NCBI GenBank assembly: GCA_021204045.1
Contig: JAJQAA010000031.1
Span: 1 to 48,403 of the forward strand
Direction: 5' to 3'
Length of the DNA: 48,403 nucleotides
Source: Clostridiales bacterium
Lineage (GTDB): Bacteria > Bacillota > Clostridia > Lachnospirales > Lachnospiraceae
In this document: positions 8,148 through 25,969 of the stretch, in pieces
Layout: the number at the start of each line of letters is the position of its first letter
How positions within the stretch are numbered: the stretch's first letter is position 1
The notes under the pieces: model-generated
What the model saw: only the letters and a program-made list of their open reading frames with translations
Database searches by the model: none
What the model was told of the DNA's origin: nothing
Program-made: the position numbers and the translations under genes

Positions 8148-9632
8148 TCACCGTCTCCTGCCGCCCGGAGCCCTCCCACCGCACATTCCCGGCCTGCCGC
8201 CCGAAGGTCTTCCACCCCGCATTCCCGGTCCGCCGGATGCACGGGAAGCGCCGCCCGGCATCCCCGGCGGATGACCGCCGCCACCCGGCATCCCCGGCCC
8301 ACCGCCGCGGGTCGCCGCAATCGGACACGAGGTCACACGCGAACCGATCAATGCCGCGTCCTGCGCGCCGTAGGTAAAATGAGCGTTTGCGTCAAACGCA
8401 AGACCGGAAGCCGCAGCTGTGCCGTTTTCCGGCTCCATCGCGTAACTCTTTCTGACATTGCCACAAACTGCCACGCCGCAGAAAAGCGCGACGCCAAGCG
8501 ACAGCAAAAACAGCAGCGGTCCGCTACGGAACATATCGCCCACCAGCCCGCCCAGCAGCAGCATCGCCACAAACAACGGCGCCGCCACTTCCGCGAACAG
8601 CAATGCCAGGCGCCTCCGATCCAGCGGCAGTTTGCCACAGACCTTGCCTGTCTGCCCATTGCAGGCAAAATAATACATCTGCCCCGTCGCGCGGTCATGA
8701 TAAGTCAGCGCCCACACCGGAAGCAGAGCATAGCTCCAGCGCGCATCGGAAAGATCGACCTTTGCGCTGACCATCCGCACGGAATCATAACCAGAAACGC
8801 CATCCCGCAGGGAGTTCTCCGCAAAGCTTCGCACCTCGTCCTCCACCGCGTCACCCACCTGTTCTTTCTCAATATCGCGGTTCTCCGCCATGAAGCCGGA
8901 GAGATAGGCCATCTCAAAATCCTGCTGCCCACTCATATCAAACGGCAGCACACCTTCCACCAGCTTGCGGTCACTCCGCGACAGGGCGCAGCGGGTTACG
9001 TTTTCCACCGGCATCTCGCCCTCCCGGCTAATTCGGTAACGCTCGGTGCGCGTGTAGCGCAGCGTCCCGGAAACCCAACTCTGCAGCCGTTCCCCTTCCG
9101 CCTCCATGCGTCCCTTCGCGCGGCAGCTGTACTGCCAGTAAGGGAAATAGACGCCGGTCATCGACTCGATCTGCTCCTTGCTGTAGAAATCCTTCGGGAT
9201 ATAACACTTCCGCGAAATCCACTGATCAAAAATCTCTGTTGCCTGCTTCCGGTCAACCGCAAAGGGAATGATCTTGTCCGGATGATACTCTCCGCTCATT
9301 CTTCCGGAAAGCACGACCGGATTATGACAATAATAGCAGATCGTCGCGGCAGTCGTCTCGCTGGTCACCAGCTGCGCGCCGCAGCTCGGGCAATGATACA
9401 GGACCGCCTGCCCGGCCGACTCACTCTGACAATCCGGCTTATCTGACCCTTCTGTCTGCGTTGCCGGGCCGACTGCTGCCGATTCATCTTCTCCCTCTGC
9501 TTGCCGGCTCAGCTCCTCCATCTGCTCCTCATCAAACTCCGACAGGCAGTATTCACAACGAAATTTCTGCGTCTGTGGATGAAAGCGGAGATCGCCGCCG
9601 CAGTTCGGGCATTTGTATGTGATTGTCGCCAT
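8148..9632 (-). CDS. zinc-ribbon membrane protein, YdjG/TFIIB-ribbon-like
   Basis: A 494-residue protein. It begins with a zinc ribbon C8-x2-C11...C26-x2-C29 (CPNCGG, CEYC), followed by an acidic linker and a second ribbon (CPSCGAQL, CYYCHNP), as in TFIIB-type or YdjG-like proteins. A long soluble region rich in aromatic residues follows, then two membrane segments (about 360-405) and a Gly/Met/Pro/Arg-rich tail (repeated GMPGG, GRPSGG) of about 60 residues. The start is ATG 9632 with GGGAGG 4 nt upstream; ATG 9647, overlapping the SPFH stop as TGATG, is also possible. In Bacillus subtilis ydjG and ydjI (SPFH) sit with pspA in a stress operon. Here the SPFH partner is immediately upstream, so a membrane-integrity role is inferred. 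Confidence 0.78.
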   Translation of the reverse strand: MATITYKCPNCGGDLRFHPQTQKFRCEYCLSEFDEEQMEELSRQAEGEDESAAVGPATQTEGSDKPDCQSESAGQAVLYHCPSCGAQLVTSETTAATICYYCHNPVVLSGRMSGEYHPDKIIPFAVDRKQATEIFDQWISRKCYIPKDFYSKEQIESMTGVYFPYWQYSCRAKGRMEAEGERLQSWVSGTLRYTRTERYRISREGEMPVENVTRCALSRSDRKLVEGVLPFDMSGQQDFEMAYLSGFMAENRDIEKEQVGDAVEDEVRSFAENSLRDGVSGYDSVRMVSAKVDLSDARWSYALLPVWALTYHDRATGQMYYFACNGQTGKVCGKLPLDRRRLALLFAEVAAPLFVAMLLLGGLVGDMFRSGPLLFLLSLGVALFCGVAVCGNVRKSYAMEPENGTAAASGLAFDANAHFTYGAQDAALIGSRVTSCPIAATRGGGPGMPGGGGHPPGMPGGASRASGGPGMRGGRPSGGRPGMCGGRAPGGRRR

Positions 9633-9646
9633 AAATCCTCCCGCCA

Positions 9647-10909
9647 TCAGCTCCTCGGCTTCCCGCACTCGCTACAAAACTTACCGGTATTGACCGTGCC
9701 GCACGAACACGTCCACGAAACGGCCGGGCGCGGCCTTCCGCATTCCGTGCAGAATTTTCCGCTGTTGACCGTACCGCAGGCACAGACCCACTCGCCCGCG
9801 CCGCCCTGCTGTGTCACTCCTGCCGACTGTCCTGCCGGATCGTTTTCTCCGTTCATTAACCGTGAGCCTCCAGCATATGCGCCGCTTTGCGGCGCGCCCG
9901 TCTGCCGCGCCTGCGCGTTCATCTGCATTTGCTGCAAATTGGCCGCGGAAGCCGCGCCCACAAAACCGCCGCCCGCGTTCATCCCGGCCGCCATACCCAT
10001 AAACCCGGCCATCGCGCCGCCGGAATTGGAACCGGCCGCCTCCATGCCCCGTGCCATCGCGCCCTGGACATAGCCTTCGCGCACCGCCGGATCGGAGAGC
10101 ATCGCGCCCTGATTGCGCAGATTGATCAGCTTCTGCGATTCCTCATCATAGGAAATGCTGGCGATGCCCACATTCATCACTTCAAAACCACGGTCGCGCT
10201 TCCAGCCTTCGTCCAACACCTCCGACATATAACGGCTGAGCTCCATTCCCTTCGAGGCAACAAAGGAAATGCGTTCCCCGTCCGCCGACATCTTGTTGAT
10301 CGATGACTGCAGCGCTTCCAGGAATTCATTCATATACTGCTCGTTGATCGTCCCGATCTCGACATTGACGGCGTTTTTCGGGATCACCTGCGCGTAAAAC
10401 AGCAGAGGATCCGTGATTTTGATCGAGTACGTCCCGTGCGCGCGCAGAAACAGTTCCGCGTTGTAAAAGCTGTCATAATAATTGACCGGCGTGCGCGTGC
10501 CGAATTTGATTCCCTTGATTTCCTGCAAATTGATGTAAAATACCTTCTGTGCCGTGGGTGTCTCGCCGCCATAGCGGATACGGTTGAAGGATTCGTGCAG
10601 CGTCTCCTTAAACTGCCCGTTGAACAGAGACGGCAGCGAGGAATTATTCACCGTATAATATCCTTCTTCCGCCGTATAATCTACAACCTTGCCACCGTCC
10701 ACGAGGATCATAAACTGTTCCGGATAGACATGGATCACCGAGCCGTTGGACACCGTATTGTCGGTTCCCTTCGTATTGGATCCCCTGCGGGTCTTCACGC
10801 CGCCCGCGAAGACGGTCTGATCCCCCATATCTCCCGGCTCGATCACCTCGAGCCACTGGTCTGCCAGCGCGCCGCCGATCGCGGTTGTCGCCGCCTTAAT
10901 AATTCCCAT
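9647..10909 (-). CDS. SPFH domain protein with C-terminal zinc ribbons, YdjI-like
   Basis: A 420-residue COG4260-type SPFH protein. The N-terminus (GIIKAATTAIGGALADQWLE) and the SPFH core (about 30-300, including YDSFYNAELFLRAHGTYSIK) match YdjI-like 'virion core' proteins. A Gly/Ala/Met-rich linker leads to two C-terminal zinc ribbons, CACG...CTEC and CSCG...CSEC. SPFH proteins oligomerise on the inner face of membranes. The start is ATG 10909 with AGGAGG 7 nt upstream; the frame opens one codon earlier at GTG. The ABC permease gene ends 25 bp upstream and the zinc-ribbon membrane gene overlaps downstream. The shared zinc ribbons suggest that the two proteins interact. No PspA gene is present in the window. 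Confidence 0.88.
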   Translation of the reverse strand: MGIIKAATTAIGGALADQWLEVIEPGDMGDQTVFAGGVKTRRGSNTKGTDNTVSNGSVIHVYPEQFMILVDGGKVVDYTAEEGYYTVNNSSLPSLFNGQFKETLHESFNRIRYGGETPTAQKVFYINLQEIKGIKFGTRTPVNYYDSFYNAELFLRAHGTYSIKITDPLLFYAQVIPKNAVNVEIGTINEQYMNEFLEALQSSINKMSADGERISFVASKGMELSRYMSEVLDEGWKRDRGFEVMNVGIASISYDEESQKLINLRNQGAMLSDPAVREGYVQGAMARGMEAAGSNSGGAMAGFMGMAAGMNAGGGFVGAASAANLQQMQMNAQARQTGAPQSGAYAGGSRLMNGENDPAGQSAGVTQQGGAGEWVCACGTVNSGKFCTECGRPRPAVSWTCSCGTVNTGKFCSECGKPRS

Positions 10910-10934
10910 CACAATCCCTCCTTAAAAATACTCA

Positions 10935-11864
10935 TCACCGAATCTGCTTCCGTTCCGGATCCAGCACCCGTACCGCCACAAAAATGCACAACAGAGCGAA
11001 CCCCGCCTGCAATGCCATACTGCAGCCCACCCAACTGTCAGGCAAAGAGGGCAGCAAAACAGTGGCTTCCCGGGTTCGCAGACTTTCCATTCCGGAAAAC
11101 GTCGCTACCTGACCGGAAACCCGCGGCAGCGCCGACAAAAACGTCGTGATCGGATTGACCAGCAGCAGAACTCCGAGCCTGCCGGAACCCGCGAACATCC
11201 CCGCATCCACGCCTCCCGCGTAGGCCACCGCGGCCGTACCTGCGTAGGTCGCCGTAGCCGTGCGGCCGACATAGCCGGACAGCCAATTGATTCCATACGT
11301 TCCGATCGTGATCAACGCCGTGGCCAGATAGGCTGCCACAGTTGAAAGCGTCGAACGTTTAAAAATCGCCGAACAGCAGATTCCCAGACTGCCGACAAAC
11401 AACGCCGATATCATATAGCAGAGCAGCAGCAGCGCCATATCGCCAACGGTCACCCCGCCATAGATAAAAACCATGGCCAGAACCGGGAAACTGGAGATAA
11501 TCAACAGTGCCATCGTGCTGCACGAGGACATCAGTTTACCGCGCACAATCTGCGCCGGCGTCAGCTGTGTCGTCAGCATCAGCTCCAGTGTCCTCCGCTC
11601 GCGTTCGCCGCTGATACTCCCCGCCGTCAGTGCCGGCATAATAAAAATCACCATGACAAATTCCAGCGTTGCAACAAACAGATACAGCTGCAGAAAACTG
11701 CTGTACTGAATCTCCGCAGTCACACGCACCCGGGCCAGCGTCGAATACATGTTGAGGAGAGCCACCATGGCCAGAATTCCGTTAAAAACCAGCATCACCA
11801 GCGCCAGCCGGAAACTGCGGGCGCTGACCATCATTTCCCGCCTATAAACCGGATTCATCCTCAT
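10935..11864 (-). CDS. ABC-2 type transporter permease
   Basis: A 309-residue permease with about six membrane segments: one near 20-42, a pair around 70-95 with the loop SGERERRTLELMLTTQLT (the classic ABC-2 coupling region), then segments near 130, 160, 190 and the C-terminus. The length and layout match ABC-2 exporter permeases. I start it at ATG 11864 (GGTGG 7-9 nt upstream); ATG 11858 is an alternative. The start overlaps the ATPase gene by 23 bp. With the ATPase it forms an exporter. The large extracytoplasmic protein encoded before the ATPase is a likely accessory, as in Gld-type systems. The substrate is unknown. Confidence 0.85.
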   Translation of the reverse strand: MRMNPVYRREMMVSARSFRLALVMLVFNGILAMVALLNMYSTLARVRVTAEIQYSSFLQLYLFVATLEFVMVIFIMPALTAGSISGERERRTLELMLTTQLTPAQIVRGKLMSSCSTMALLIISSFPVLAMVFIYGGVTVGDMALLLLCYMISALFVGSLGICCSAIFKRSTLSTVAAYLATALITIGTYGINWLSGYVGRTATATYAGTAAVAYAGGVDAGMFAGSGRLGVLLLVNPITTFLSALPRVSGQVATFSGMESLRTREATVLLPSLPDSWVGCSMALQAGFALLCIFVAVRVLDPERKQIR

Positions 11865-12807
11865 ACGCCAGCACCACCTTTTCCTCATCATGCTTCGTCA
11901 GCTGCATAAACACCGCCTCCAGGCTCCCCGGCTCCCGCATGAAGCCGCGCACGGCAATTCCCTGCGCCGTCAGCGCAGCCAGCAGCTCGCTCTCCTGGCG
12001 GGCGCTGCCGGTAAACCCAACCATAATCTCCCGCTCCCGCATGCTGATCGTGCGCACCAGCGGATGATCTTTCAGCAAAGGAAGCGCCGCCGCCGGATCA
12101 TCGCAGAATGTGATCACCAGCGGCCTGGCTGTCCGCACCTGGTTGACCAGTTCCTCCACAGAACCATGAAGCAACATACGGCCTTCATCAATAATGCCGA
12201 TGTCCGTACACAGCTCCGATAAATCCGAGAGCAGGTGAGAGCTGATCAGGATCGTCTTCCCCTGTTCATTGAGTTCCCGGACAATCTCGCGAAACTCCAG
12301 GCGCGTGTGCGGATCCAGACCGGCTGTCGGCTCATCCATCACCAGAAGCGGCGGGTCATGCAGCAGAGCGCGCGCCAGGCACAGGCGCTGCTGCATGCCA
12401 CGGGAAAGACTGTCCACATAGGAATCCTCCCGTCCGTCCAGCCCTACCTGCTCCAGCAGCGTCAGCCCGCGTTTGCGCGCCGACAGGCCCTCCAGGCCAT
12501 AGCAGGCGGCAAAAAATTCCATATATTCCCAGACCTTCAGGTTGTCATAAATTCCGAAATAATCCGGCACGTAGCCGATATAGCTCCGGATCTGCCGCGA
12601 ACGCTTCCGGGCGTCAATGCCTGCGATGTGCACCGTTCCGTCATCCGGCGCAAGCAGGCCGGTAATAATGCGGATCGTCGTGGTCTTTCCGGCCCCGTTC
12701 GGACCAATCAGTCCATAGAGCGTACCCTCCGCGATCTCCAGGTCGAGACCGGCGAGCGCACGGTAATTTCCATAATTCTTTTTCAGGCCGTGGATCTTTA
12801 GCATCAT
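11842..12807 (-). CDS. ABC transporter ATP-binding protein
   Basis: A 321-residue ATPase. Walker A GPNGAGKTT is at residues 35-43, the ABC signature is LSRGMQQRL, Walker B is LLVMDEP, and a switch His lies in ISSHLLSDLSELC. The Q-loop position reads GYVPDYFGIYDNL, with Asp where Gln is usual; this variant seems characteristic of this exporter subgroup. A C-terminal domain of about 100 residues (FCDDPAAALPLL onward) follows, as in ABC-2 exporter ATPases. GGGAGG lies 5 nt before ATG 12807, which overlaps the previous stop as ATGA. It powers the permease encoded next. Confidence 0.92.
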   Translation of the reverse strand: MMLKIHGLKKNYGNYRALAGLDLEIAEGTLYGLIGPNGAGKTTTIRIITGLLAPDDGTVHIAGIDARKRSRQIRSYIGYVPDYFGIYDNLKVWEYMEFFAACYGLEGLSARKRGLTLLEQVGLDGREDSYVDSLSRGMQQRLCLARALLHDPPLLVMDEPTAGLDPHTRLEFREIVRELNEQGKTILISSHLLSDLSELCTDIGIIDEGRMLLHGSVEELVNQVRTARPLVITFCDDPAAALPLLKDHPLVRTISMREREIMVGFTGSARQESELLAALTAQGIAVRGFMREPGSLEAVFMQLTKHDEEKVVLAYEDESGL

Positions 12808-15266
12808 TCTTCCCTCCCCGCGACCATCGGCATCGGCAGCTGAATGGAACCATAGGTTCGCGCGCCTTCATAGACATAACGCACCGTAATCCGGTTGCCG
12901 GGCGACAGATAATAATCAAGCTCTTCGATATCCAGCGTCCGTCCTTCCGTCTCCATGCGGTCAAAATTGCCGCTGCCATAATTATAAAAATAAATATTTC
13001 CGCTAAAAATCTCGATAGGGCTCCCGCTCTCACTCTCCAGAAATTCATTCGATATCGACTCAAAGGTCAGACTCTCCACCGAAATATCGGTGCCAAGCTG
13101 ATATTCCAGCGTCAGCGGCTCCGAGCCGGTCATTGAATTTGTCCGCGCGTCATACTGGCCACTCACCACCTCCGGCGTCTTCATCAGTACGGACCGGTAA
13201 AGCAGACGATCCCGCGAGGCATTCACCGAAAGTGCTGAGGTCACCATCGTCTGTCCGTAGCTGTCCCCCGCATTTTTCACAAGGAACTGGCTCTCCTCCA
13301 TATCCGTGCCAAACGCGATTACCCGTGCGTCGGCCGTGTACGAGGAAAGGTAAGTATCCAGATAAAATTTCAGCATACCGGATCGTTTCATTGCCAGCAG
13401 ATAGCCCGCATCGTCAATATCCGCCTCCGCATATGCCCGTTCTCCGGAAATCCACTCGGAAATCACATAGCTGTTGTTGAGCGGGAAACGCAGAACCTGC
13501 AAATCATCCAGGCTTTTCGTCTCGCCCGGCTCCAGCCTGCCCAGATATACCATGTTGCCGTAAAGAATCAGCGCTGCTTTTTCCAGCACATACGGGAAAT
13601 AATTGGTAATATACCCGGAAATCTCTCCTTCGAAATAATCCACCTCGCCGCTGATCCCAATCGCTTCCGTATTGTCGCTTTTTTTCATAAGCTGGAAATA
13701 CCTGGGCGCAAATGGTTCGATATTCTGCCCCTGAATCGTCAGACGATCCTCCGACTGATAAATCGCGATCTGATACGCATCCTCCTCCGCAAACTCCGTA
13801 CTGCTTCCATCGCCGGACGAACGACTGCGTGTGATGGGCTGTACCGAGTAACCGGGCTGCAATTCCACCAGATACGGGCGATTGTAGGGATTGCGGATAT
13901 TGACAAACGTTGTGTCCGTAACATAATCATCGTCTGCGTCGATGATCGTCGCATAGCTGTAAAAAAGCGAACGAAAACGTGTCGTACTGCCAAGCAGATA
14001 AATCACGACCGCAAATATCAGCGACAGGCCAATCACGCCGCTGCGGTAATAAAGCTGCAGCCCGCGCCGCCGCAAAAACAGGTAGAGTCCCGGGCCGAGC
14101 AGCAGCAGATACACAAGAATAACGGCCGCGTACAATTCCAGCCGCGGCAGCTTCTCCACACTTCCCGTATTGATCAGGCTCTGCACCGACCAGTAACGGC
14201 TCGAATCGCCGCCGTAGGTCAGTTCAGCCAGTTCATCAATGCGGCTGTCGCCCAACAGACTGGTCAGAAAATAGTCCACATAAGAGGTTTGCTGCGAACA
14301 AAATACGCCGATTTCGGCCAGGTCAAACGCCGTCACGGCAATCAGTCCCTGCTCCTTCGCCGTCTCCGTCAGAAGCGCAAGGCCGCCGCTGGAAATAATC
14401 ACATTGCCGCCGTGCAGCGGGATATCGACACAGGTCAGTTCCAGTTCTTCCGCATCGCTCTCGTCCGGCACAAAACCTTCCGCGAGATTGACCATACAGG
14501 TACGCGGGGAACCATACGAAGCATCCAGAAGCTCCGGCGCAAAACGCCCCAGCGTATCATCCACGCGTGCTCCGGTACCCAGAAGCAGCACTCCGCCGCT
14601 GTGCACCCAATCCATAATCGCGGCTGTCTGGCTCTCCGAAAGACTGCGCAGCTTAAACGCGTTCACCACCAGTACATCCAGCAGGTCCAGACCGATCTCA
14701 TCCTCCGGGAAATCATCCGCATCAAGGTCAAAGGTCCGCGTGCGCAGCGTGCTGTAGCTCACGCCGACGCCGTCCAGATAATGCAGATCCTGCGGATCAT
14801 CCGAGAGAAGGCCGATAAACAGCTCCGGTACGTCAAGACTGATATTCAGCTTGACGCGTTCGCTCGCCAGCACCTCGCCATCTTCCCGTACGAACGACAC
14901 ATACAGGCGGCTTGCCCGGGTTCCCAGCGGGATATATTTCTCCAGCCACAGGTCTTCCTCAGCGCTCACCGAAGCCGGAAAATCATAGCGGTAAACGCTG
15001 CCGTCCGACTCCATCGATTTGATTTGCAGCGTGCCCGCCACCTCACCGGCAGACGGATTCTCAATCCCAATAGAAAGCGGCAGATAGCGGCCGCCCTTGG
15101 CAGTGTTGTCATAGCCGTACTCGATTTCCAGGTTTACATCCGTCCGGGCGAAAACCTCATTCGGAGCGCAAAAAACCAGGCCGCAAAAAAGAAGGGCGGC
15201 ACAGACCGCGACCATCTGTCGTCCGGCTTTTTTCCCATGATAAAATCTGCGAAAAATTCCGCCCAC
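12804..15266 (-). CDS. large extracytoplasmic membrane protein with GATase-like domain, ABC accessory
   Basis: A protein of about 820 residues. A basic N-terminus and hydrophobic stretch (VAVCAALLFCGLVFC) form a signal peptide. An immunoglobulin-like region follows, then a domain resembling class I glutamine-amidotransferase folds (LLDVLVVNAFKLRSLS, IMDWVHSGGVLLLGTG), with no catalytic Cys seen. Two membrane segments (LELYAAVILVYLLLLGPGLY; VIGLSLIFAVVIYLLG) lie near the middle, and a second extracytoplasmic domain ends the protein. The frame opens at TTG 15308. I prefer GTG 15266, 4 bp after the kinase stop with GGGGTG upstream, because it keeps the basic n-region; ATG 15215 has no clear site. 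The layout resembles DUF4350/GldG-like accessories of ABC-2 exporters, whose ATPase gene follows with a 4-bp overlap. Confidence 0.72.
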   Translation of the reverse strand: MGGIFRRFYHGKKAGRQMVAVCAALLFCGLVFCAPNEVFARTDVNLEIEYGYDNTAKGGRYLPLSIGIENPSAGEVAGTLQIKSMESDGSVYRYDFPASVSAEEDLWLEKYIPLGTRASRLYVSFVREDGEVLASERVKLNISLDVPELFIGLLSDDPQDLHYLDGVGVSYSTLRTRTFDLDADDFPEDEIGLDLLDVLVVNAFKLRSLSESQTAAIMDWVHSGGVLLLGTGARVDDTLGRFAPELLDASYGSPRTCMVNLAEGFVPDESDAEELELTCVDIPLHGGNVIISSGGLALLTETAKEQGLIAVTAFDLAEIGVFCSQQTSYVDYFLTSLLGDSRIDELAELTYGGDSSRYWSVQSLINTGSVEKLPRLELYAAVILVYLLLLGPGLYLFLRRRGLQLYYRSGVIGLSLIFAVVIYLLGSTTRFRSLFYSYATIIDADDDYVTDTTFVNIRNPYNRPYLVELQPGYSVQPITRSRSSGDGSSTEFAEEDAYQIAIYQSEDRLTIQGQNIEPFAPRYFQLMKKSDNTEAIGISGEVDYFEGEISGYITNYFPYVLEKAALILYGNMVYLGRLEPGETKSLDDLQVLRFPLNNSYVISEWISGERAYAEADIDDAGYLLAMKRSGMLKFYLDTYLSSYTADARVIAFGTDMEESQFLVKNAGDSYGQTMVTSALSVNASRDRLLYRSVLMKTPEVVSGQYDARTNSMTGSEPLTLEYQLGTDISVESLTFESISNEFLESESGSPIEIFSGNIYFYNYGSGNFDRMETEGRTLDIEELDYYLSPGNRITVRYVYEGARTYGSIQLPMPMVAGREE

Positions 15267-15270
15267 TTTT

Positions 15271-16428
15271 TCACCCCGGTTTTTCAAAATGTTCTTTATT
15301 AACGTCAAAATTGACCTGGAGCGTGACCGTAAATACCGTACCGCCCAGATCGCTTCTGACTGTAATGTCGCCGTTGTGCATATCCACGATGTTTTTCACG
15401 ATCGCCAGCCCCAGGCCGGTGCCGCCGGTATTCGTGGAGCGTGACTGTTCCACCCGGTAAAATTTATCGAAAATCAGCGGCAGCTCCTCCGCCGGAATCA
15501 CATAGCCGTAATTCGTGACCGAAACCTGTACAATCTCCGATCCGGCCGTGACCTTCACGACAATACGTTTTCCGTCCGCTCCGTATTTAACCGCGTTGTT
15601 AATCAGATTGTCAAACAGCCGCGCCAGCAGATTGCCGTCCGCGGTAATCATCTTGGCCGGCACATTGCTCTGCAGCTCATAGGAAAGCCCTTTGGCGGCA
15701 AAGCTGGGATAGGATTCCTCGAGCAGCTGGCTAAGCAGCTTGATGATGTCCACTCTGGAAATATGCATGGAAATCTTGCCGTAGTTCATCTTGGTAAAAC
15801 CAAACAGATCCTCAATCAGCTTTTCCAGGCGCTTGGCCTTACTGTAAGCAATGTCAATGTATTTTTTCTGCATTTCAGGCGGAAGCGGCGCTGATTTTGA
15901 CGAGAGCAGCTCCAGATAACCGATGATCGAAGTCAACGGCGTGCGCAGGTCATGCGCGACATTCGTGATCAGCTCATTCTTCGTCCGTTCCGACTCGCGC
16001 TCACGATCCATCAGGCTGCGAATATCCTCAACCATCTTGTTCAGATTGGCCGCCATCGCGGAAAACTCATCGTCCCCCACGACCTCGATCGTCGTATTGA
16101 GATCGCCCTCGGAAATGGTTTTGACCGCGTCCGAAATCCGTCCGATATAAGCGGTCGAGCGCTCCTGCAGAAATAAAAAGCAAACGGAAAAAATGACGAT
16201 CCCCACAAGCACATACGCAAGTACGACCGGCATATCCGAATGGTATACCATAACCAGCAGCGCGTTCTCGCTCTGCGCGCCTCCCGCGTAATCCGCCAGC
16301 ATTGACAGGTTGATCACCAGAAAGACTTCGACCAGACAGGCCAGCGCCGCGCTGTAAATAATGTTGATGATCATGCGGGTACGAAACCGGCGGCTTACGT
16401 CGCCCTGGCCGGTTTTCCTACTTTTCAA
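15271..16428 (-). CDS. sensor histidine kinase
   Basis: A 385-residue membrane kinase. Two transmembrane segments (about 20-42 and 70-90) flank a short extracellular loop of about 28 residues. HAMP follows (about 90-145), then a HisKA box NVAHDLRTPLTSIIGY with the phospho-acceptor His near 160, an N box (DNLINNAVKYG), and G boxes (TGGTGLGLAIVKNIV). The small sensor loop suggests intramembrane sensing, as in envelope-stress kinases. The start is a TTG at 16428 overlapping the regulator stop by 11 bp, with AGGAT about 6 nt upstream; the first ATG (16374) has no site and would cut into the first membrane segment. It is the partner of the OmpR-type regulator. Confidence 0.9.
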   Translation of the reverse strand: MKSRKTGQGDVSRRFRTRMIINIIYSAALACLVEVFLVINLSMLADYAGGAQSENALLVMVYHSDMPVVLAYVLVGIVIFSVCFLFLQERSTAYIGRISDAVKTISEGDLNTTIEVVGDDEFSAMAANLNKMVEDIRSLMDRERESERTKNELITNVAHDLRTPLTSIIGYLELLSSKSAPLPPEMQKKYIDIAYSKAKRLEKLIEDLFGFTKMNYGKISMHISRVDIIKLLSQLLEESYPSFAAKGLSYELQSNVPAKMITADGNLLARLFDNLINNAVKYGADGKRIVVKVTAGSEIVQVSVTNYGYVIPAEELPLIFDKFYRVEQSRSTNTGGTGLGLAIVKNIVDMHNGDITVRSDLGGTVFTVTLQVNFDVNKEHFEKPG

Positions 16429-17122
16429 TCTTGTATCCTACCCCCCACACCGTCGTAATGATCTTATCCTGGCGTTCGTCTTCCTTCATCTTGCCGCGCA
16501 AGCGGCGGATATGTACCATCACCGTGTTGTTCGCCTCGTAGACCTTCTCATTCCACACCCTCTCAAAAATCTCATCGGTGCTGAACACCTTGCCCGGGTT
16601 GGAAGCCAACAGATAAAGAATATCAAATTCAATCGGCGTCAGCCGGACTTCCTCGTCGTAGACGGTAACCTTGTAGTTGTCCTTATTAATCGTCAGGCCG
16701 CGGATACTGATCTCATTTTTCTGATTTTCATGAATGTTGCTGTTGGGATTCAACTGGGTATAACGACGCAGCTGGGATTTCACACGCGCCGTCAGCTCCA
16801 GTGGGTTGAACGGCTTCGCCACATAATCATCCGCGCCGGTGCCGAGGCCGAGAATCTTGTCCAGATCCGTCGACTTGGCGCTGAGCATGATAATCGGAAT
16901 GTTGTTCGTCTCACGGATCTTCTTGCACATCTCCAGGCCGCTCATGCCGGGCATCATAATATCAAGAAGCACCATCTGAATATCCTCCTTTTCGAGAATA
17001 TCCAGCCCGTCCTGCGCGTTGGATGCCTTAAATACTTTATATCCGTCGCTGACCAGATAAATCTCTACCAAGTCGGCGATCTCCTGCTCATCGTCTACTA
17101 CCAGAATATTTGTCTCTGCCAT
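16418..17122 (-). CDS. OmpR/VanR-like response regulator
   Basis: A 234-residue response regulator. The receiver has the acidic pair D10-D11, phospho-acceptor D54 (VLLDIMMPG), and the conserved Lys in AKPFNP; a winged-helix DNA-binding domain follows (LTPIEFDILYLLASNPGKV, then NNTVMVHIRRLRGKM). The opening ILVVDDEQEIADLVEIYL closely resembles VanR. The start is ATG 17122, with GGAGG 7 nt upstream. It heads the operon running to the zinc-ribbon protein, so autoregulation and control of the ABC/SPFH genes are likely. Resistance to a cell-wall agent is possible but not shown: no vanHAX genes are present. Confidence 0.92.
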   Translation of the reverse strand: MAETNILVVDDEQEIADLVEIYLVSDGYKVFKASNAQDGLDILEKEDIQMVLLDIMMPGMSGLEMCKKIRETNNIPIIMLSAKSTDLDKILGLGTGADDYVAKPFNPLELTARVKSQLRRYTQLNPNSNIHENQKNEISIRGLTINKDNYKVTVYDEEVRLTPIEFDILYLLASNPGKVFSTDEIFERVWNEKVYEANNTVMVHIRRLRGKMKEDERQDKIITTVWGVGYKIEK

Positions 17123-17197: not shown

Positions 17198-17313
17198 GGG
17201 CAGAGCCTCGAAAAACCTACGGTTTTTCTCGGTCGCTTCGCTCGCCAGATGGATGTCCCTGTGCCCGCTCGTGCAAGCACGGCGGCCTCCTGGACATCCA
17301 TCCGGCTCTGCCC
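17198..17313. repeat. structured palindromic intergenic element
   Basis: A 116-bp element between tctA and the response regulator. Outer arms GGGCAGAGCC (17198-17207) and GGCTCTGCCC (17304-17313) are perfectly complementary. Nested inside are GATGGATGTCC (17248-17258) with its complement (17292-17302), a hairpin GAAAAACC-TAC-GGTTTTTC (17210-17228), and CGTG-CAAG-CACG in the centre. It could fold into a branched cruciform on either strand. No long T-run follows, so it is not a simple terminator. Its design resembles a miniature palindromic repeat or MITE, probably multicopy, but only one copy is in the window. Confidence 0.7.
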
Positions 17314-17361
17314 TTTCCGTACATCATATCATAAATTGTCGCATTACGCCTTACTTTTTTA

Positions 17362-18879
17362 TTACAAATCCGGGAGTGATTTCCGAATTTTCCGTTTTTT
17401 GTACCACGGATACAAAAGAGAAAGCACAAAGACCAGCGCGCTTATCATAAGCAGTACCGCCGTAACCGGACGCGTAAATACCGCAACCAGGTTCCCGTCT
17501 GCCAGATGATAGGCCGTACGAAGATCGTATTCACAGATTCGTCCGAGAACCACACCAAGAATCAGAGCCGCCGAATTGTAGCCCAGACGCATAAAAAAGT
17601 AACCGACGATACCGGCACAGATCATCAGCGCGACGTCATCCGTACTCTCGTCCAGCGCATAAGTGCCAAGCACCGCCAGCATCATCGTCAGCGGCGTGAT
17701 CACACTGTAAGGAATCTGCCGGATTCGCGCGAGCAGCCGTGCCAGGGCAATCGCCACGATCACCATAATCAGATTCGTCGCCAGCATCGAGCCGAACACC
17801 CCGGCCAGATATTCCGGCTGTTCCGTTATCAGCTTCGGACCAATATAAATTCCGCGCAGTCCAAGCGCGATCATGATGATCGCGGCCGCGTTGCCGCCGG
17901 GAATCCCAAACGCCAGCAAAGGCACCATCGAACCGCCGGCCGCAGCGTTGTTCGCCGACTCCGCCGAGACAATGCCGCCGGGCGCGCCTTTCCCAAGAAG
18001 TTCCGGCTGCCTTGACAGCCGCTTTTCGATCGCGTAGGAAACAAACGAAGCGATCGTCGCGCCCGCGCCCGGGACAATTCCAACGACCATGCCGACCACA
18101 GCGGAACGCAGCATCGCAATTTTCATCGCCCACAATTCCCAGAAACCCGGCAGCGAGAGATTGCGATGGCCGATCTGAAACGGCGATCGCCGGGTATCCA
18201 CAATCAGCGGCTTTCGCGTATCGCGAAGGCATGCCGGGACAATAAACAAGCCAATCACTACAGGAACAATATCAATCCCCTCCTGTACCGGGCCAAAACC
18301 CGTTGCCAGCCGCGGAACGCCAAGAATCGGATCTGTTCCGGTACAGGCCAGCAGAAGACCCAGCAGCGCCGAAATCACAGTCCGCACTGTATTGCCGCTG
18401 TCCAAACAGGTTAACAACACCAAGCCGAGCAGGACAACCGCAAATTCTTCTGACAGATGAAAATAATTTGACAAATCCGTTAACGGAATGGTCAGAGCTG
18501 CCATCGCCACCGCCGCGATCAGGCCGCCAATGGCGGATGAAAACAGCGCATAACCCAGCGCCTTTCCGGTTTCTCCGCGCTGCGCCATCGGAAATCCATC
18601 GTATGTAGTCGGCAGGCTCGACGGTGTCCCGGGAATACAGAACAGGACCGCGGTAATGCCGCCGCCCGCAATCGCCGCGCAGTAGACCGCCACGAGAAAA
18701 GCCAGCGCGGTAACCGGTTCCATGCGACAGGAAAACGGCAGCGCCAGTACAAGCGTCATTGACGCGCCGATCCCGGGCAAAGCGCCGCAAATCACCCCAA
18801 AGACCGTACCGATCAGAATCACCAAAAACACTGTCGGTTCCGCCGCAAGCACAGCGCCGGCGCTCATAATCTCAAACAC
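17362..18879 (-). CDS. tctA: tripartite tricarboxylate transporter large permease TctA
   Basis: A permease of about 505 residues with about 10-12 membrane segments and the TctA signature segments GALPGIGASMTL, GFPMAQRGETGKAL and GIVPGAGATIASFVSYAIEK, plus the internal duplicate APGGIVSAESANNAAAGGSMVPLLAFGIPG spread over about 285-315. TctA is the channel subunit of tripartite tricarboxylate transporters, which take up citrate and other carboxylates using a periplasmic or lipoprotein TctC. I start it at GTG 18879 (GGGAGG 8 nt upstream); GTG 18888 and ATG 18867 are alternatives. It overlaps the tctB stop. No tctC is found nearby. Confidence 0.9.
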   Translation of the reverse strand: MFEIMSAGAVLAAEPTVFLVILIGTVFGVICGALPGIGASMTLVLALPFSCRMEPVTALAFLVAVYCAAIAGGGITAVLFCIPGTPSSLPTTYDGFPMAQRGETGKALGYALFSSAIGGLIAAVAMAALTIPLTDLSNYFHLSEEFAVVLLGLVLLTCLDSGNTVRTVISALLGLLLACTGTDPILGVPRLATGFGPVQEGIDIVPVVIGLFIVPACLRDTRKPLIVDTRRSPFQIGHRNLSLPGFWELWAMKIAMLRSAVVGMVVGIVPGAGATIASFVSYAIEKRLSRQPELLGKGAPGGIVSAESANNAAAGGSMVPLLAFGIPGGNAAAIIMIALGLRGIYIGPKLITEQPEYLAGVFGSMLATNLIMVIVAIALARLLARIRQIPYSVITPLTMMLAVLGTYALDESTDDVALMICAGIVGYFFMRLGYNSAALILGVVLGRICEYDLRTAYHLADGNLVAVFTRPVTAVLLMISALVFVLSLLYPWYKKRKIRKSLPDL

Positions 18880-24188: not shown

Positions 24189-25835
24189 CTACATCCCCGG
24201 TCCGGACGGAATCTGCACCGCGGACTGCGGCGGCGTTTCCGGCTGCGATGTCGTTTCCGCCTGTGACGTCGTCTCCGCCTGTGATGTTGTTTCCGCCTGC
24301 GATGTCGTCTCCGCCGGAGGCGTCGACTCTGATTGCGGTGCGGCCTCTGCCTGCGGCGGTGCTGTCACACCAAGATTGTTTTCTGCGTTTCCAGCGTTTC
24401 CAGCGTCTCCCGCAGCTCCGGCATTTTCGGTGTTTTCCGCAGCACTGCCCTGCGTCTCTGTCGACGGCACAGTCTCCGTTACCGTCGCCTCCGGCACAGC
24501 CGGTCCGACCAGATAAATGGCCTTGGATGCGTTGTAAGTATCGGTATTCAAAAGTGTGCGTTCTGTCTCCACACCGTCCACGCGGACAACCTTCCACAGC
24601 CGGGATTTCAATCCGACATGCGCCGACTGTACCTTCTGGCGCGTGCCGGGAGCCAGACTCGTGTCAAGCCGCTCCGTGGGCGCACCGGGATCTGTCCTGC
24701 TTAATGTTTCCGACACATACTCGATCTTTCGGTTCTCCGGCCGCGTTTCCTTCCCGTAAATCGTAAAGGTCAGCGTCTTACCTGACGTGTAGCCCTCAAT
24801 ATAAACCGGCGTACTGTAATTGTTCGTGATCTTAATATCCTTATAGGTACCGGCAATCGCCGCGTCCATCGACGGCTTCACATAGGTGACAATCATCGAA
24901 TGGTTCTGCCGCTGCGTGATCTCCAGCTCTGCCTGCAATGCCGCATTGTACAATGTCGTAGCGATCTGGCACACGCCGCCCCCGACACTGTCCACTACCA
25001 TACCGTTCTCATAGGCTGCCGCCGTATAATAGCCGTTTGCCGTCGTAAACGGGTGCATATACTCATAGCCGGAAAGCGTCTCTCCCGGCATCAGCACACA
25101 GCCGTTGATCTTGCCCGCGCCATTGGCGAGATTTTTGGAGCGGGCTGCGCCGCTCGAAGAAAAATCCGTCGAAAAGCTGCCCAGCACATCGCCAATCGTC
25201 GCCAGCTGCTCCCGGGTAACCTCCGGTTCCTGCCGCACAAGCACCGCCTCTACAGCAATATCACTGCCGCTGCCATCATCTGCCAGAAGCACCTCATTGA
25301 TACGAGCCTCCGTCGCATCAACATCCACCATCTCTCCGGGCACTCCATCCGTGATCTCAAATACGCCGTCTATCCGTGTAATCATCGCATTTTGCGGTTC
25401 CGCAGACAGACCCGTTTCCTGTCCCTCCAGGAATACCGCAAGATGTCCGCCATCAATTTCCAGATCCAGATCAATATACAACGGATCCTTTTGCAAATCT
25501 TTCGCGGCCATATAGCGCTCGATCAGGTTCCCCTCGGAAAGCTTTTCCAGCTCTTTTGCAAGCTCGTCCTCATTGCTCCAGGAAAGCCCCAGATCCCCCA
25601 TCTGCGCAGTTAATATCTCTCCGCCGACGTCCAGTTCAAGCTGCCTGCCCGCCTGTTCCTCTATGCGGTCATCAATGGCCTGACGCGCTTCCTCTTTCGT
25701 CATGCCCCCAAGCGATACGTCGCTGACATACACTCCCTCCGGAATCGTCGGTTCTGCCGCCCAGGCAGAAAACATCATGGCTGCCGCCGATAGAAATGCT
25801 GCCGCCAATCCGCCCGCCAGCTTCTTTTTTTTCAT
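24189..25835 (-). CDS. VanW family protein with PG-binding and G5 domains
   Basis: A 548-residue exported protein. A signal peptide (KKKKLAGGLAAAFLSAAAMM) ends near AWA-AEP. Two peptidoglycan-binding-like segments follow (about 30-240, GVYVSDVSLGGMTKEEARQA), then the VanW domain (about 250-385; GGVCQIATTLYNAALQAELE, RQNHSMIVTYVKPSMDAAI) and a G5-type domain (KVVRVDGVETERTLL). The tail is low-complexity, with TSQAET repeats encoded by 18-bp units. VanW proteins are wall-associated and of unsettled function. The start is ATG 25835 with GAGGG upstream; a longer frame exists without support. The downstream Lrp gene begins 42 bp later. Despite the name there is no vancomycin cluster here. Confidence 0.88.
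   Translation of the reverse strand: MKKKKLAGGLAAAFLSAAAMMFSAWAAEPTIPEGVYVSDVSLGGMTKEEARQAIDDRIEEQAGRQLELDVGGEILTAQMGDLGLSWSNEDELAKELEKLSEGNLIERYMAAKDLQKDPLYIDLDLEIDGGHLAVFLEGQETGLSAEPQNAMITRIDGVFEITDGVPGEMVDVDATEARINEVLLADDGSGSDIAVEAVLVRQEPEVTREQLATIGDVLGSFSTDFSSSGAARSKNLANGAGKINGCVLMPGETLSGYEYMHPFTTANGYYTAAAYENGMVVDSVGGGVCQIATTLYNAALQAELEITQRQNHSMIVTYVKPSMDAAIAGTYKDIKITNNYSTPVYIEGYTSGKTLTFTIYGKETRPENRKIEYVSETLSRTDPGAPTERLDTSLAPGTRQKVQSAHVGLKSRLWKVVRVDGVETERTLLNTDTYNASKAIYLVGPAVPEATVTETVPSTETQGSAAENTENAGAAGDAGNAGNAENNLGVTAPPQAEAAPQSESTPPAETTSQAETTSQAETTSQAETTSQPETPPQSAVQIPSGPGM
24244..24315 (-). repeat. 18-bp tandem repeat in the VanW coding tail
   Basis: Four consecutive 18-bp units (24244, 24262, 24280, 24298) differ mostly at third positions and encode the six-residue unit A-E-T-T-S-Q. 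They form a flexible Thr/Gln/Glu tail after the G5 domain. In-frame copy number could vary among strains without breaking the protein. Confidence 0.85.
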
Positions 25836-25861
25836 AGCCGCCCTCAAAACTCCCGCATTTT

Positions 25862-25969
25862 TTAAACCATCGCGCTCAGCGCCATCGGCACTACCATTGC
25901 CAACACCAGAATCACCGCGACAACCGCGCAAACGATACGCTTCGTCTTGCTGCTGCTCATCTTTTTCAT
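25862..25969 (-). CDS. 35-residue single-span membrane peptide
   Basis: A short frame starting at ATG 25969, 3 nt after the stop of the exonuclease gene, with AGAGGTGA about 8 nt upstream. It encodes a basic start (MKKMSSSKTKRIV) and one hydrophobic span (CAVVAVILVLAMVVPMALSA) ending at TAA 25862, 27 bp before the VanW start. The pattern is that of a small inner-membrane peptide; I do not recognise a family. Tight coupling to both neighbours and a clear ribosome-binding site argue that it is translated. Confidence 0.65.
   Translation of the reverse strand: MKKMSSSKTKRIVCAVVAVILVLAMVVPMALSAMV

Follow-up and report, generated by a model that had tools for sequence, protein, structure and literature searches.

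In Bacillus subtilis, YdjI and PspA are anchored by YdjG and YdjH, which interact with each other (PMC8581546, excerpt). The excerpted text of a phage shock protein survey presents the ydj operon as a PspA association, and the PspA-free contexts that it names are PspC and Toastrack (PMC11237479). BceRS-BceAB modules contain a two-component pair and an adjoining ABC transporter with a large outer domain, and BceS-type kinases have an outer linker of fewer than 11 residues (PMC3023708, excerpt). GldA-GldF-GldG and DUF4350/arCOG01314 sets contain an ATPase, a permease, and an outer protein with a GATase1/flavodoxin-like (GIFT) domain (PMC5898192, excerpt). Here we describe a seven-gene array that resembles parts of each of these systems. 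It was found on contig JAJQAA010000031.1 of a Clostridiales bacterium (Lachnospiraceae; GCA_021204045.1). The window analyzed was this entire contig of 48,403 nucleotides. The source genome (G000) contained 2.75 Mb and was 99% complete.

The array probably consists of two adjacent modules, a self-regulated sensor-exporter and a PspA-free scaffold related to YdjIGH. Module 1 would extend from 17365 to 10935 and module 2 from 10912 to 8148. All seven open reading frames (ORFs) are on the minus strand, and the ORF listing with Pfam and NCBIfam matches places the co-directional genes where an earlier note on this DNA had put them. The exporter module is a variant of the two-component ABC envelope modules. 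The scaffold can be described as a variant of YdjGHI that lacks PspA and, in this genome, carries an unusual fusion. Among the open PMC papers listed in literature searches, no description of a PspA-free YdjGHI set or of a GldG-type two-component module was noticed.

In module 1, the kinase and regulator would control an ABC-2 exporter through a single GTAA-N7-GTAA box at their own promoter. The large outer partner of the exporter is predicted to have the GldG/DUF4350 (GIFT) fold. The module is probably Bce-like, in that the exporter and its outer domain would meet either a compound that acts on the envelope or one of the building blocks of the envelope. The kinase has little outside and may read the exporter or the bilayer and turn the operon up. 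In module 2, a soluble SPFH protein would be held at the membrane by the zinc-ribbon membrane protein and its YdjH-like tail, and the assembly may act as a scaffold.

Gene neighborhoods of the two modules

Three samples were compared. The genus sample contained 24 genomes, including G000, and the order sample contained 295. The named loci were the best 80 of 593 confirmed loci from an SPFH profile search and are biased to close relatives. Two of them, L140 and L141, duplicate contigs of genus genomes G023 and G004, judging by length.

The gene for the 834-aa GldG-like protein was present in 24/24 genus genomes, together with the ATPase, the permease, and the two-component pair, although the G002 contig stops within the kinase gene. 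A close SPFH gene (76-100% identity) was present in 15. It follows the permease gene in 11 genomes (G000, G004, G006, G007, G009, G010, G011, G016, G018, G022, and G023), in G018 only after 2.5 kb. In four others (G003, G012, G013, and G021) it is on another contig, with no permease match in the fetched upstream stretch. It was missing from the remaining nine, some of which are incomplete; one of the nine, G015, has a 39% copy elsewhere. A HIT gene directly follows the permease gene in G005, G012, G015, G017, G019, and G020. In the window, the HIT gene follows the zinc-ribbon gene. It begins a same-strand run (8077-86, minus strand) of HIT, MoxR, DUF58-like, DUF4129-like, LRR, DUF2201 (VWA-like), and AAA genes.

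The full array was found in 14/80 named loci, two of which are genus contigs, and in 11/24 genus genomes, the window included. Among the named taxa that carry it are Enterocloster bolteae, C. clostridioforme, C. aerotolerans, Hungatella, and Lacrimispora. The array thus recurs in several genera, and none of the genomes of the 14 array loci contains PspA, in line with the earlier note. In the other 66 named loci, the SPFH gene lacks the ABC and two-component genes, and 47 of these loci have at least 7 kb upstream. Unrelated genes were found at the junction. L146 has an AP_endonuc_2 family gene between the permease and SPFH genes, and a frame resembling it was seen by eye in L147, L149, L150, L182, and L187. 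G018 has DUF969, DUF979, and pyroglutamyl peptidase genes in this position. A protein with a C-terminal zinc ribbon is encoded between the permease and SPFH genes of L142 (8017-8907; Hungatella-type), and the gap in L143 looks alike by eye. L150 comes from a metagenome-assembled genome (MAG) titled Paenibacillaceae, yet it closely resembles the Lacrimispora loci L149 and L147, to the point of looking almost identical, and its record may be mislabeled.

The earlier note had proposed one fused system and had named free separation of the ABC/two-component and SPFH parts as evidence to the contrary. Such separation is largely what was found. Given this separation and the foreign genes at the junction, a single seven-gene system was not retained as the default. 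The two-module reading rests on these gene neighborhoods, and the clade-specific juxtaposition of the two modules is real.

A sigma-A-like score of at least 9/12 was found upstream of the SPFH gene, within 120 bases, in 12/22 array loci. The same score was reached in 12/41 loci with the trio alone. No promoter-like site was found in the 25-bp gap between the permease and SPFH genes of the window, and module 2 is probably read through from module 1 there. In relatives, module 2 may be driven by a promoter of its own and often lies elsewhere. The earlier note had looked to a promoter and terminator between 10909 and 10935 as a possible split of the set. The promoter-like sites of relatives are weak evidence for such a split, and the window has none in the gap.

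Several observations weigh against the proposed account of the two modules. The promoter-like sites at SPFH score no lower than 95% of their own shuffles in only 6/22 array loci, two of which are near-copies. L149 and L150 have a weak box-like site with 4 mismatches just upstream of SPFH. The kinase loop is longer than the linker of BceS-type kinases. The recurrence of the whole array in the named and genus samples makes selection for adjacency, and hence coupling, possible. The strongest rival is one integrated membrane-defense operon, in which the SPFH scaffold organizes the exporter and kinase. Gene order and strand are the same in Lacrimispora, Enterocloster, Hungatella, C. aerotolerans, C. 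clostridioforme, and the window genus, and the permease/SPFH gap is 29-122 bp in 8/10 array-bearing genus relatives. Gap lengths for L142, L144, L145, and L161 were unreliable and were set aside. However, the parts separate across the genus and the named loci, the unrelated genes of L146 and G018 lie exactly at the junction, and the box sits at module 1. We consider an integrated operon unlikely.

The probable sensor-exporter module and its putative regulation

The response regulator (16418..17122) is of the OmpR/PhoB class, with Response_reg and Trans_reg_C matches in Pfam/NCBIfam. Its start is the ATG at 17122, preceded by AGGAGG. The histidine kinase (15271..16428) contains HAMP, HisKA, and HATPase domains. 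By hydropathy, it has two transmembrane (TM) segments with 20-30 residues between them, which bears out the description of a kinase with little outside. A similar stretch was present in 41 aligned rows, in which two pairs are the same contigs.

The regulator box GTAA-N7-GTAA (GTAATAAAAAAGTAAGGC; 17348..17365, minus strand) was recognized by conservation and overlaps the 3' end of tctA. Behind it is an extended -10, TG-A-TATGAT (17323..17331, minus strand), read by eye from the sequence. In relatives, the -10 behind the box is TGnTA-rich. The box was found 5' of the regulator gene in 23/23 evaluable genus loci, the window included, with 0-3 mismatches. G002 was left out of this count, as its regulator lies off the contig. 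It was also found 5' of the regulator gene in 14/14 named full arrays at 4 mismatches or fewer. Within the window there is a single site at 3 mismatches or fewer (chance 0.01). Across the genus, 21/29 sites are at the regulator gene, and all 14 exact sites are among those 21. A wider regulon was dropped, with 8 off-target sites versus 15 for the control pattern. The relocated SPFH genes of the genus were also searched for a common regulator box on their upstream side, and none was found.

A strongly folded leader element (17201..17310, minus strand) separates the regulator gene from its promoter. Its folding energy is -70 kcal/mol (z -6.7). It gave a full-length match to the Clostridiales-1 RNA below threshold (E 1e-4; 29.3 bits against a gathering score of 48). 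None of the 249 fetched loci contained an exact copy of a 20-base probe taken from the leader. The leader is not part of the conserved array.

The ATPase (11842..12807) is DrrA/GldA-like and matches ABC_tran. The permease (10935..11891) is an ABC-2 protein of 318 aa, GldF-like, and matches ABC2_membrane. The 834-aa extracytoplasmic protein (12804..15308) is GldG/DUF4350-like by predicted fold. It contains an N-terminal signal or TM segment, an Ig-like domain at 56-156, and a GATase1/GIFT-like domain at 161-360. Two TM segments follow at about 390-442, and the C-terminal half is beta-rich. The predicted GIFT/GATase1-like fold upholds the claim of a GldG-like accessory protein. The protein matched no Pfam or NCBIfam family, the DUF4350 and GldG models included, and had no solved relative by sequence at E 0.1. 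Its relatives in L099 and L146 match Pfam DUF4350 below the cut-off (E 0.004 and 0.01). Foldseek on the whole model returned mostly multidomain glycosidases with low TM-scores and was not used.

Module 1 shares with BceRS-BceAB the two-component pair and the adjoining ABC transporter with a large outer domain, and perhaps the short-loop type of kinase. It differs in its permease, which is ABC-2/GldF-like and not BceB-type. Its outer domain is a separate GldG-like protein, whereas that of BceB is a permease loop of about 200 residues, and its kinase loop has 20-30 residues versus under 11 (PMC3023708, excerpt). With GldA-GldF-GldG it shares the ATPase, the permease, and the outer protein with a GIFT domain. 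Unlike that set, its outer protein has an Ig-like domain and no sequence match to the GldG model, and the exporter is governed by its own two-component pair. The window organism is not known to glide.

Alternatively, module 1 might not be a drug-sensing system and might instead be one of the DUF4350/MoxR/vWA machines for which Makarova et al. (2015) predicted a role in secretion or surface assembly. The account of GldG/DUF4350 proteins in PMC5898192 (excerpt) and the GldG/IFT52-like domain of the 834-aa protein are consistent with this. The genes immediately downstream in the window also fit: MoxR, DUF58-like, DUF4129-like, DUF2201 (VWA-like), and AAA, with the DUF58-like and DUF4129-like matches below cut-off. 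MoxR was also near the GldG-ABC genes in 5/22 order loci. A set of 20 order loci had been drawn from the stronger members of 81 positives, with some strong ones left out. However, no MoxR match was found in the stretches fetched around the operon in the 23 other genus genomes, and the dedicated two-component system of the window's family argues for a response to a signal. The probability of a secretion machine is low.

It is very improbable that the regulators are a vancomycin-type pair with its resistance genes. The best NCBIfam matches are VanR (318 of the 350 bits needed) and VanS (297 of the 400 bits needed), so VanRS are the closest named families, and a VanW-domain gene is present at 24189-25931. 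VanW alone is not known to give resistance. Both regulators are below the family cut-offs, their target operon is another one, and no van ligase or dipeptidase family was found among the scanned window proteins, some window ORFs being unscanned. An anti-phage defense system can practically be dismissed, as nothing specific speaks for it, PADLOC on ten proteins gave generic ATPase, kinase, and weak zinc-finger matches, and the ABC part is in 24/24 genus genomes.

The proposed scaffold module and PspA

In relatives, module 2 contains an SPFH gene, a YdjG-like gene, and then usually a TPM (YdjH-like) gene. The SPFH protein of the window (9647..10912; ATG at 10909) matches Band_7_1 and carries two C-terminal zinc ribbons. 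It had no solved relative by sequence at E 0.01. The last gene (8148..9632) is listed as an ORF to 9668, and its start, MATITYK, was placed at 9632 by homology. It also encodes two zinc ribbons, read in both proteins from the sequence. Residues 13-377 of the 506-aa ORF align to YdjG-like proteins, and from 387 on it aligns to the TM segment and tail of the TPM protein. The earlier description of a two-zinc-ribbon membrane protein was right as to the ribbons, and the gene is actually a YdjG fused to a YdjH/TPM-type tail. The window protein is 54-57% identical to two rows of a ten-relative profile. In hhalign, that profile, with the window row excluded, matched the YdjG-like protein encoded in a PspA operon at 100% probability (E 3.5e-61), which supports the YdjG-like assignment.

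The fusion was tested with hidden Markov models (HMMs) in 95 loci (14 genus, 80 named, and the window; two were counted twice, giving 93 distinct). YdjG-like proteins were found in 83 and TPM-type proteins in 77. Only the window has both on one ORF. The fusion covers positions 172-269 of the 273-position TPM-protein model. The TPM domain PF04536 had no match anywhere in G000 and was present in the other 14 close-SPFH genus genomes. The fusion protein has two TM segments (354-372 and 385-403), and because of this topology both inner parts would stay inside, with only the outer domain gone. The fusion agrees with a known contact, since YdjG and YdjH of B. subtilis interact. By HMM coverage, the TPM domain is also missing in L153 and apparently in L160, where the YdjG-like frame is broken. 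Two or three tandem TPM domains were seen by the same measure in the YdjH-like proteins of L167, L171, L179, and L194.

The SPFH proteins of the order survey were split by E-value into type b (1e-40 or lower) and type a (above 1e-22), and G217 falls between. In the tree, the type-b clade of the window protein is distinct from a group of six type-a SPFHs, supported at 100/100, of which five are encoded next to PspA. Two long-branched rows fall near the type-a group, and B. subtilis YdjI itself is not among the tree rows. The window SPFH is 21-22% identical to the type-a SPFHs. It can be called YdjI-like as a homologue of the PspA-linked YdjI type, and it lies outside that clade.

PspA (PF04012) had no match in the whole of G000, which substantiates the claimed absence, although an extremely diverged PspA could escape this search. 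In the genus, 4/24 genomes contain PspA (G005, G017, G019, and G020), and none of these is among the 15 with a close SPFH. In the order sample, it was found in 10/117 type-b genomes versus 59/178 others. It was present in 36/64 order genomes with only weak SPFH matches. Fisher p values were 0.012 (genus) and 5e-7 (order); all these comparisons ignore kinship, and the p values are descriptive. Among the named type-b genomes, whose completeness is not stated, 74/80 lack PspA, again with kinship ignored. Many of the genomes behind these counts are drafts. The other six are Bacillus-like (L165, L174, L175, L188, and L217) and a Clostridia MAG (L170). No PspA match was found near any of the 80 named loci within the fetched flanks (up to 9 kb, often shorter). 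Strict mutual exclusion of type-b SPFH and PspA was rejected, as both occur in those 10 order and 6 named genomes. G053 has a type-a SPFH and no PspA.

In two PspA-bearing genus genomes (L223 and L224), pspA is beside another gene, with no SPFH there. The gene beside it in L223 is TPM-like, below the cut-off. A locus of the same family (L228, 6456-12422) has a PspA-YdjG-YdjH-YdjI cluster with MoxR directly after it and then a DUF58-like gene, the latter recognized by eye. This order echoes that of the window, SPFH-YdjG and then HIT-MoxR-DUF58.

Module 2 and its relatives thus share with pspA-ydjGHI of B. subtilis a C-terminal zinc-ribbon SPFH, a two-ribbon YdjG, and, in the window's relatives, a TPM YdjH, all in one cluster (PMC8581546 and PMC11237479, excerpts). 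The window differs in lacking PspA both locally and genome-wide, and its SPFH is from a separate clade. The order here is SPFH-YdjG-YdjH. The window has also lost the TPM domain, and what is left of YdjH, its tail, is joined to YdjG.

Meaning for the family

The set may plausibly have an antimicrobial-peptide function. More tentatively, Clostridia and some of their kin may have a PspA-independent YdjI-YdjG-YdjH branch. In it, YdjG and the YdjH tail would anchor an SPFH assembly that itself carries out the membrane maintenance for which other bacteria use PspA. The number of outer TPM domains would vary in this branch (0 to 3 by HMM coverage), with the window fusion as a natural minimal version. 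In Lachnospiraceae, the branch would have been recruited beside a Bce-like sensor-exporter made from GldA/F/G-type parts. We regard this broader proposal as possible and still doubtful.

YdjGHI is known as a set that brings PspA to the membrane. The SPFH clade described here is largely in PspA-less genomes, which suggests that a YdjGHI-type set has a function of its own. The fusion predicts which parts of module 2 touch. For gut bacteria, module 1 would offer a concrete case, open to testing, of a GldG-type counterpart to Bce detoxification modules.

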